DNA from: Candidatus Saccharimonadota bacterium
GTDB lineage: Bacteria > Patescibacteriota > Saccharimonadia > Saccharimonadales > Saccharimonadaceae
DNA length: 15,269 nucleotides
Reading direction: 5' to 3'
NCBI GenBank assembly: GCA_900555425.1
Contig: UNSM01000013.1
Coordinates: 1 to 15,269, forward strand
A program made the translations under genes and the position numbers. Below the pieces are notes generated by a model, which had not been told where the DNA came from, made no database searches, and saw only the letters and a list, made by a program, of their open reading frames with translations. This document shows positions 308 to 1,809 of the stretch, piece by piece (within the stretch, counting starts at the first letter, position 1; each line of letters opens with the position of its first letter).

Positions 308-336
308 TTTACAAAAAGCATAAAATTTACTATAAT
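308..336 (+). promoter_or_regulatory. Promoter of the hisS transcript
   Basis: The -35 is TTTACA (308-313), the spacer is 17 bp, and the -10 is a perfect TATAAT (331-336). The predicted start, seven bases past the -10, is A343. That base is also the A of the ATG of the His-rich leader ORF, so the transcript should start with AUG. Confidence 0.85.
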
Positions 337-342
337 GGACTC

Positions 343-387
343 ATGATTTTACCTAAATTCCATCATTCACACGTGTTGCCGAGGTAG
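343..387 (+). CDS. His-rich leader peptide of hisS (14 aa, leaderless)
   Basis: A 14-codon ORF, MILPKFHHSHVLPR, ends with TAG at 385-387. Codons 7, 8 and 10 are histidine, which is far above chance in so short a peptide directly ahead of histidyl-tRNA synthetase. Its ATG coincides with the predicted transcription start, so it would be read from a leaderless mRNA. The end of the ORF overlaps the 5' arm of the downstream RNA hairpin, as in classical attenuators such as the his operon leader and pheM ahead of pheST in Escherichia coli. The role is inferred: the peptide itself is probably unimportant and ribosome stalling at His codons is the sensor. No Shine-Dalgarno is possible or needed. Confidence 0.72.
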   Translation: MILPKFHHSHVLPR

Positions 388-434
388 GACTCTGATTTTT
401 GATTGTACGCGCCGAGTTCTGCCTCGGCGTTTTT
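378..434 (+). promoter_or_regulatory. Histidine attenuator: alternative hairpins plus T-tract
   Basis: Two incompatible structures share the same bases. The compact terminator pairs CGCCGAG (410-416) with CTCGGCG (423-429), a perfect 7-bp stem with a 6-nt loop, followed by TTTTT (430-434). The long form pairs 378-392 with 414-428, 15 bp with two G:U pairs and a 21-nt loop. Inferred model: a ribosome stalled at the His codons covers bases up to about 384. This leaves 385-392 free to pair with 414-421, which sequesters 414-416 and breaks the terminator, so hisS is transcribed. A ribosome that reaches the stop codon masks 378-398, so the compact terminator forms. With no translation, the full long stem abuts the T-tract and should also terminate. 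Confidence 0.7.
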
Positions 435-474
435 GATTGCTATAAATAAGAAATAATGACATAATGGAGCTAAC

Positions 475-1809
475 ATGAGCAGTTTATCTACACAAAGTTA
501 CAAAGGTTCGCGAGACTATTTTCCAGAGGAAAAGCGTCTGCAGAATTACATTTTTAACGTTTGGCACAAGACGGTTGAGAGTTTTGGCTATGAAGAATAT
601 GGCGCGCCGCTACTGGAGCCGCTAGATATTTATCTGGCGAAGTCAGGCCAGGAATTGGCGGGCGAGCAAACATACGCTTTTGAAGATCGTGGTGGTCGAA
701 TGGTGGCGATTCGTCCTGAGATGACGCCGTCGATTTCTCGAATGGTGGCGGCTAAGCGTCAGGAATTGGCGATGCCTGCGCGGCTGTATTCAATTGCTAA
801 TTTTATGCGCTATGAACGACCGCAACGTGGGCGTGAGCGTGAGTTTTGGCAATTGAATGCGGATTTGTTTGGCGTGGACGGCGCGGCGGCGGACGCGGAG
901 ATTATTGAGCTGAGCCACGCTAGCGTGATGAATTTTGGTGCCAAGCAAGAAATGTTTACGGTCAGGGTTAATAATCGCCAATTGATAAATCGTCTGATGA
1001 GCCAATTTTTGAAGCTTGATATTGTTGGCTCGACGATGATGATGAAGTTACTTGATAGGAAAAATAAGATTCCTGCCGAAGAATTTAAGCGTCAGGCGAT
1101 TGAGATTTTTGGCAATCAAGCATCAGAGGGTTTGCCAAAGCTAGCAAAAATGATCAGCATGAAATCTGTTGATGATTTGCCGAGCGAATTGATGGAAGAT
1201 GAAAGCGTTAAGCAGCTTCGCGAAGTGATGAAATTGCTTAGCCAAAAAGGCATTACGAATGCAGTGTTTGATGTTACTTTGATGCGCGGATTGGACTATT
1301 ACACGGGCATGGTTTTTGAGCTGTTTGATAATTCGCCAGAGAATAACCGAGCATTGTTTGGTGGCGGACGATATGACGGATTAGTTGGGCTATTCGGTGT
1401 CGAACCGATTGCTACGGTTGGTGTTGGTATGGGCGCGACAACGATGGAGCAATTTTTGGAAGTGCACGGCTTGTTGCCTAAATTGGCGTCCAAAACAGAT
1501 GTATATATAATTCCGGTGTCAAAAGAATCTATGGCTGGCGCGGACGATTTGGCGCGAAAATTGCGCAGCGAAGGCGTGCGAGCGGAGTTGGATATCACTG
1601 GTAGAAAGATTGACAAGCAGATAAAAGCGGCGTTGAAAAAGCAAATTCCGTTTGCGGTGTTCGTGGGTGAGGATGAAATTGCTAGCGGCGCATACACGGT
1701 TCGAAACTTGGTGGAATCTGATGAGCAGAAGGTTGGCGCTGAACGAATCGTGACAATTGTCAAAGATCGTCGATATGATGGCGATGAAGACGCTCTGTTT
1801 GAGGTATAG
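475..1809 (+). CDS. hisS: Histidyl-tRNA synthetase
   Basis: A class II aminoacyl-tRNA synthetase, 444 residues, that charges tRNA-His with histidine in the cytoplasm. Visible signatures are RPEMTPSISR (80-89), class II motif 2 RYERPQRGREREF (112-124), the histidine-binding RGLDYYTGMVFE (271-282) and GGGRYDGLV (296-304). The C-terminal anticodon-binding domain begins near 341. Motif 3 (GVGMGATTME, 316-325) lacks the Glu-Arg pair seen in the Escherichia coli enzyme; the family assignment is still secure from the His-specific motifs. The ATG at 475 is preceded by GGAG (466-469) at a 5-nt spacing. Expression is probably set by the His leader peptide and terminator upstream. The tig promoter overlaps its last codons. 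Confidence 0.96.
   Translation: MSSLSTQSYKGSRDYFPEEKRLQNYIFNVWHKTVESFGYEEYGAPLLEPLDIYLAKSGQELAGEQTYAFEDRGGRMVAIRPEMTPSISRMVAAKRQELAMPARLYSIANFMRYERPQRGREREFWQLNADLFGVDGAAADAEIIELSHASVMNFGAKQEMFTVRVNNRQLINRLMSQFLKLDIVGSTMMMKLLDRKNKIPAEEFKRQAIEIFGNQASEGLPKLAKMISMKSVDDLPSELMEDESVKQLREVMKLLSQKGITNAVFDVTLMRGLDYYTGMVFELFDNSPENNRALFGGGRYDGLVGLFGVEPIATVGVGMGATTMEQFLEVHGLLPKLASKTDVYIIPVSKESMAGADDLARKLRSEGVRAELDITGRKIDKQIKAALKKQIPFAVFVGEDEIASGAYTVRNLVESDEQKVGAERIVTIVKDRRYDGDEDALFEV

Follow-up and report, generated by a model that had tools for sequence, protein, structure and literature searches.

The window analysed here is a stretch of 15,269 nucleotides (nt) from Candidatus Saccharimonadota bacterium (assembly GCA_900555425.1, contig UNSM01000013.1), and the subject is the region ahead of hisS, the histidyl-tRNA synthetase gene. 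This hisS is 100% identical to that of the isolate PRJEB56001, 99% identical to that of TM7 oral taxon 352, and 76% identical to that of Candidatus Nanosynbacter; the source is a Nanosynbacter-like Saccharibacterium, a very small oral bacterium. A promoter (P1), a 14-codon open reading frame (ORF) with His codons, and two overlapping hairpins lie in front of the gene (Table 1). A first-pass annotation had read them as a leaderless His-rich leader peptide and a terminator, which together form a ribosome-mediated histidine attenuator of hisS. Its coordinates for the promoter, the ATG at 343, the ORF, both stems, and the hisS start proved right on reading of the sequence, scanning, and checking of the pairs, and its core reading is supported by the sequence comparisons described below. 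Namely, hisS seems to be under the control of a transcription attenuator sensing charged His-tRNA through the ribosome, for which we estimate a probability of about 0.87.

Table 1. Features of the hisS leader region in the window, and HisR loci of related genomes
Feature	Position	Strand	Basis
Promoter P1	-35 TTTACA 308-313, 17 nt, -10 TATAAT 331-336	+	Scan, 11/12; relatives share the position of the -10-like box
Leader ORF, 14 codons, MILPKFHHSHVLPR followed by stop	343-387	+	Sequence; related leaders in other genomes
Tandem His codons 7-8	361-366	+	Masked folding; CAN codes for His, not Gln, in 36/39 and 46/48 cases at equivalent positions
Third His codon (codon 10)	370-372	+	Equivalent place in relatives
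Antiterminator 5' arm, carrying Pro-Arg codons and stop	378-392	+	15 pairs with 414-428; stem covaries
Antiterminator 3' arm, overlapping the terminator	414-428	+	Pairing with 378-392; covariation
Intrinsic terminator	409-434; stem 409/410-416 with 423-429/430, T-run 430-434	+	Scan, 8 pairs, 6 GC
Possible promoter P2, directly 5' of hisS	437-465, TTGCTA-17-CATAAT	+	Scan, 9/12, TG before -10
GGAG, Shine-Dalgarno-like, 5' of hisS	466-469	+	Sequence
hisS, histidyl-tRNA synthetase, 444 amino acids, putative regulated gene	475-1809	+	Pfam PF13393 6.8e-45, PF03129 1.1e-19
HisR loci L234-L254	for example L234:1474-1797		

With 11 of 12 consensus matches, P1 ranks first among the 27 promoter-like sites of the window, and the leader ATG is situated 6 nt downstream of the end of its -10 box. 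Because of this short distance, the leader ORF is probably translated without a 5' leader; leaderless status in the window and in the relatives was judged from the -10 spacing alone. The numbers of promoter-like and terminator-like sites in the window (27 and 13) show no clear excess over those in shuffled sequences (21.6 and 15.0, respectively). It is the combination of the parts and its recurrence that stand above chance, not the single sites.

The leader peptide MILPKFHHSHVLPR has His at codons 7, 8, and 10, and its UAG stop (385-387) lies inside the 5' arm of the antiterminator. Every one of the 15 pairs of this stem, two of them G-U, was verified, as was each pair of the competing 7-bp terminator stem (410-416 with 423-429), which is followed by five T residues. 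The 3' arm 414-428 overlaps the terminator, and the two structures are mutually exclusive. At minimum energy, 343-434 folds into the 15-bp stem (-27.6 kcal/mol); none of 200 shuffles was as stable (z -3.4). The hisS start is 40 bases past the end of the T-run. Three features that mark this class of attenuators, namely an ORF with His codons, exclusive hairpins, and a downstream gene of histidine metabolism, are found here.

From this arrangement we infer the exact 5' end of the transcript, stalling and termination in the cell, and how large the effect is. Transcription would start at or beside the ATG of the leader, which would be translated without a 5' leader. When His-tRNA is scarce, the ribosome would wait at His7 or His8 and leave 378-392 free; this arm would pair with 414-428 as it emerges, the terminator would not form, and hisS would be transcribed. 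When His-tRNA is ample, the ribosome would reach the UAG codon and cover 378-392, and the hairpin 410-429 would then form, so that RNA polymerase would stop in the T-run near 434.

Recurrence of the leader in Saccharimonadia

Relatives of hisS were gathered from 61 genomes, 57 of which matched, and from genome contigs (98 relatives, 80 kept). A script search ahead of hisS for short ORFs encoding [HQS]-H-x-H followed by two residues and Pro gave 12 distinct leaders: those of the window, L005, L008, L012, L015, L016, L024, L040, L046, L052, L053, and L073. They have in common the promoter spacing, the peptide motif, and the hairpins, and by eye each has a -10-like hexamer whose end lies 6 to 8 nt ahead of the ATG. 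No such ORF was found at the remaining distinct loci, including those of the genus mates L003, L004, L006, and L009; L007, with merely 10 nt of upstream DNA, was left out of this judgement. In L012 and L015, hisS seems by eye to have an in-frame N-terminal extension, with promoter-like sequence abutting the inner ATG, and two start points are possible.

Two models of the leader, R1 and R2, were scanned against the 392 genomes of the class. At E<=0.01, R1 matched 65 genomes and R2 matched 72; 72 matches of R2, in 70 genomes, were at E<=1.6e-4 and were followed by a gap to 5.9e-3. For R1, 68 sources were searched, and 59 were kept after nine had been dropped (L170, L173, and L176-L181 as partial or chance-like, and L128 as the window's species) together with two weak second matches. 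R2 was built from these 59. By construction, the models are not independent of their matches; genes downstream played no part in building them. In the phylum scan, R1 matched 14 of 379 genomes: nine Saccharimonadia at E<=5e-5, and five others at 1.6e-3 to 5.0e-3. The latter values are at the chance level over 379 genomes, and the attenuator was not accepted for Patescibacteria outside the class.

A hisS match is present in the fetched DNA downstream of 43 of the 59 accepted R1 matches, of which 11 are model seeds; the hisS match of L141 shows just 30% identity, and for several of the 16 leaders lacking hisS the DNA is short. Ten downstream proteins were scanned and showed HisG with PRA-PH, PRA-CH, histidinol dehydrogenase, M15 dipeptidase, M20 peptidase, AstE/AspA-like, SLOG, and GNAT domains, with two proteins belonging to no family. 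The leaders precede hisS, other histidine genes (hisG, hisD, hisI), or genes for peptidases and others.

Fifty-eight leaders were parsed from the 59 matches (L156 was unparsed). Six of them are tails of HisR proteins, as described below, and 52 are stand-alone. Among the latter, 45 have at least two His within the last 13 residues; the pattern HHxH occurs in 26, and HxHxxP in 40. In 46 of the 52, a -10-like hexamer is located 5-10 nt upstream of an in-frame start (37 at 6-7 nt) under a loose rule for which four matches were sufficient. In these 46, the start is ATG in 42, and the hexamer has at least five TATAAT matches in 43. The leaders of L158, L162, L168, L171, and L175 form a subclass with a single His, [ST]H[MI]QP..VLR, and with hairpins of the same kind.

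The comparison proposed in the first-pass annotation was whether relatives that keep the hairpin also retain the His codons in frame, and they do. The two tandem positions lie three and two codons ahead of the last His; in the 58 leaders, the first of them is CAT or CAC in 36 and CAA or CAG in three, and the second is CAT or CAC in 46 and CAA or CAG in two. CAN therefore codes for His in 36/39 and 46/48 cases. The codons themselves vary between CAT and CAC among the leaders. The count of the last His is uninformative, because the search pattern demanded it.

The antiterminator stem covaries in the relatives. This was assessed on a MAFFT alignment (A1) that was not fitted to the structure, with the antiterminator in columns 39-48/96-105. 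In these columns 89.1% of the cells are paired. There are 14 cells with changes on both sides, and the covariation score amounts to 0.367; none of 500 shuffles attained either of these two values, although related sequences may exceed shuffles without structure. Because kinship alone can beat shuffles, slid versions of the stem are the better control: sliding of the partner by 1-3 columns lowered the pairing to 32-48%. For the terminator, pairing amounts to 91.7%, and its stem alone shows little covariation (45 of 500 shuffles reach the value).

Leaderless starts do not seem to be restricted to this leader. In the near genome G002, which is approximately 83% complete, 128 of the 268 pairs of a -10 box and an ATG within 3-40 nt fall at 5-8 nt (67 at 6 nt and 42 at 7 nt). 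Since the spacing peaks at 6-7 nt, leaderless architecture looks common in G002 and its lineage. A strict scan of G002 for other leaderless leader attenuators gave four candidates, with a convincing peptide in the hisS leader alone. In the window, TTGAGG-17-TATAAT (1799-1827) lies 8 nt ahead of the trigger factor ATG (1836), which is likely another leaderless start.

Predicted switch and alternative explanations

In masked folding, a ribosome footprint was imposed on the leader with the A-site at a given codon, and the remaining RNA was folded. For the window, the probability of the antiterminator was 1.00 with the A-site at His7 or His8, and that of the terminator was 1.00 with the A-site at the stop; the terminator was also obtained at Pro13. 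At His10, a footprint edge of +9 led to the antiterminator. An edge of +11 or more led to the terminator, because it covers much of the antiterminator arm. In this model, His7 and His8, rather than His10, are likely to be the sensing codons. The first-pass annotation had expected stalling at the His codons to give the antiterminator; this holds for His7 and His8, but not for His10 when the edge is at +11 or more. It had also expected termination both after completion of the peptide and when the leader is not translated. The former agrees with the folding, but the latter does not: the window without a ribosome folds as the antiterminator (P ~1).

Seventy-two leaders (the 59 accepted matches and 13 further HisR tails) were folded in the same way, and the 66 with a recognised terminator were counted. 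The first two tested positions, H1 and H2, are fixed at the tandem-His places and do not carry a His codon in every leader. The antiterminator was predicted in 65 leaders at H1 and in 65 at H2, and the terminator in 64 at H3 and in all 66 at the stop. When the sequence separating the last His from the terminator was shuffled, H1 led to the antiterminator in 23 of 560 cases (56 leaders, ten shuffles each). The informative part of the folding is the comparison of the His-codon states with this shuffled control. Without a ribosome, the antiterminator was formed in 45 of the 66 leaders and the terminator in 21. A protector hairpin may act in these 21; none was seen in the window by inspection.

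An ordinary terminator, or an attenuator sensed by a protein or by RNA (T-box, riboswitch), would require that the His codons are there by chance. This seems extremely improbable: the 59 accepted matches keep both the codons and their frame, with CAT/CAC variation, the window gave no Rfam match over the gathering score, and what Rfam matches at the leader up to E 10 belongs to unrelated families. In 11 leader-bearing loci, Rfam gave five matches at the gathering score, all to tRNAs. The T-box family RF00230 was matched neither in the window (up to E 10) nor in the 11 loci (at the gathering score), and the Rfam His leader RF00514 has no gathering-score match in the window and is absent from the six matches up to E 10. 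Translation-coupled effects, such as a default-on antiterminator, polarity, or ribosome supply to hisS, or an action of the peptide itself, might replace stalling at the His codons. Because the unmasked fold is the antiterminator (in 45 of 66 leaders, the window among them), any block of leader translation would turn hisS on; in addition, single-His leaders exist, and peTrpL of Sinorhizobium meliloti acts in trans according to the part of the source consulted (PMC7298713). The fixed spacing of the His codons to the antiterminator arm (last His, two codons, Pro; HxHxxP in 40 of 52) and the downstream genes of histidine metabolism, however, make this explanation improbable. An attenuator that is real but minor, with hisS expressed chiefly from P2 past the terminator, is compatible with our interpretation and seems possible, if rather doubtful. 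A -10-like box near the hisS start, at about the place of P2, is seen by eye in genus relatives, also where the leader is absent. P1, on the other hand, fits the promoter consensus better than any other site of the window (11/12 vs 9/12 for P2).

Several observations weigh against histidine-sensing attenuation of hisS, or against its importance. The P2-like site (437-465) is downstream of the terminator, and hisS supply from it may escape the putative attenuator; because of this possible second promoter, the size of the effect is left uncertain. Judged by exact DNA pattern, the motif is retained in only four of nine genus genomes, two of which are of the window's species (hisS identity 99 and 100%), and for this reason the switch is dispensable. 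Full HHxH is limited to half of the stand-alone leaders (26/52) and HxHxxP to 40/52, seven of the 52 have a single His, and in leaders of the HMQP/HIQP type the single His codon predicts the terminator in the four tested of five; the fifth, L175, has no recognised terminator. For the antiterminator, the number of pairs with changes on both sides (five) was reached by 116 of 500 shuffles, and the number of further pair types (11) by 268 of 500. In the folding, the outcome at His10 flips between the footprint edges +9 and +11, six of the 72 leaders fall outside the count for lack of a recognised terminator, and the terminator at the stop is to be expected, because the stop mask covers the antiterminator arm by construction. 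Furthermore, masked folding takes no account of kinetics, of pausing by RNA polymerase, or of the footprint that the ribosome really has in this phylum. The attenuator sensing charged His-tRNA is the interpretation that best fits what sequence and comparison show: the parts and how they recur, the constraint on the codons, the covariation of the stem, the switch predicted by folding, and the His-related downstream genes.

Putative leaders at the end of HisR genes

In six R1 matches (L165, L166, L167, L169, L172, and L174), the His codons terminate a longer ORF, and the leader lacks a separate start. One such ORF matched the TrpR family PF01371 (7.1e-14) and YerC/YecD TIGR02531 (6.6e-16), and all six places coincide with TIGR02531 matches. 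This family was found in 24 of the 392 class genomes, with 22 above the cut-off. All 22 HisR genes above the cut-off carry TTTA-6-TAAA, the HisR operator core, near their start; four further matches under the cut-off have neither the operator nor a His tail. The 22 C-termini have HxHxxP in 17 cases, close variants in L237 and L243, other HH tails in L233 and L251, and none of these in L239. As 17 of the genes end in HxHxxP codons and two more in close variants, one ORF may serve as both repressor and attenuator leader. Among the nearest proteins (the best 120 of 1036), 110 end in HHxH, and eight of the other ten end in close variants. Alignments to three solved TrpR-like chains end before the HisR tail.

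Masked folding of 19 HisR tails gave a recognised terminator in 16, and 15 of these switch, L237 being the exception; no terminator was found in L249, L250, and L253. Ten proteins downstream of nine HisR-leader loci were scanned: five contain HisG, one contains PRA-CH, another M15, and three gave no family. In L245 and L249, genes resembling histidine racemases of the CntK type, below the equivalog cut-offs, follow the HisR-borne leader, and one of them is fused to a D-Ala-D-Ala dipeptidase-like domain. The HisR genes of L233, L251, and L293 have other His tails and are followed by a gene starting with GAE[VI]ET.FVD.

These results suggest, with fair probability, an autoregulated HisR gene that ends in a His leader, so that one leaderless ORF would sense histidine twice, by the protein at the promoter and by the last codons on the ribosome. 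The stand-alone leaders would be the same device without, perhaps after losing, the repressor domain, and other Patescibacteria may have related forms. For HisR of other classes, the best 30 loci of a longer list were inspected: eight have the operator core, and seven of these eight have HH near the C-terminus by eye. Eleven tails (nine of the 30, with L233 and L251 of the class) were folded; the terminator was recognised in four and a switch in two (L283 and L286), and L276 and L284 retained the terminator in the masked fold. This is a mixed picture and should be taken as a lead only. A HisR repressor for the window itself was rejected: in TTTACAAAAAGCATAAA the half sites are separated by 9 nt instead of 6, and six genus genomes gave no TIGR02531 match.

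Relation to known systems

The attenuator of the window can be compared with that of the enteric his operon, for which a short ORF containing His codons, stalling of the ribosome, alternative hairpins, and a terminator are described in the parts of the sources consulted (PMC9413887, PMC3896937). The window shares with the enteric his leader (RF00514) the His-codon ORF, the alternative hairpins, and the terminator ahead of the gene. It differs in probably having no 5' leader, in its three His codons, in that a protector hairpin was not seen, and in having a synthetase gene as the target. A His leader peptide is also predicted to control hisS* and hisZ of Bacillus (PMC2965389); like that of the window, it is a His leader peptide, but it stands ahead of hisS paralogues in a different phylum and has a run of His codons, and the word "leaderless" does not appear in the main text of that paper. 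Leader ORFs at the 5' end of the transcript, as proposed here, are reported for S. meliloti trpL (PMC7298713) and for the mycobacterial poly-Cys ORFs (Canestrari 2020, through the review PMC9031893), which the review describes as acting on translation of downstream genes, although these concern Trp or Cys and other phyla; small leaderless ORFs are also described for Mycobacterium smegmatis; these statements, too, come from partial views of the sources. The first-pass annotation had held a leaderless leader peptide controlling a synthetase in a probable CPR bacterium to be, to its knowledge, undescribed, which is too broad in view of the leaderless leaders of S. meliloti and mycobacteria and of the Bacillus leader.

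The HisR operator (cacTTTAnnnnnnTAAAgtg) has been published for other phyla, and the HisR/YerC proteins concerned have in common with the Saccharimonadia genes the TIGR02531 match and the TTTA-6-TAAA core (PMC9413887, consulted in part). In the Saccharimonadia HisR the last codons would also form a His leader, whereas that paper, as far as consulted, treats HisR and attenuators as separate systems. The open-access literature was covered by titles and the starts of abstracts; among the matches listed, none concerned an amino-acid attenuator of Saccharibacteria or a HisR-borne leader. It is considered that the kind of attenuator is already known and that this variant is new; the repressor-borne leader, found outside the window, is the newest point.

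Saccharibacteria are epibionts with small genomes and are thought to obtain amino acids from their hosts. To our knowledge, little is known about regulation in these bacteria. The hisS leader provides a testable histidine sensor in Saccharibacteria, and it predicts coupling of transcription and translation from the first nucleotide. From the HisR-fused form it can be seen how a single gene could encode both a leader peptide and a repressor, and by what route a leader could come to stand alone.
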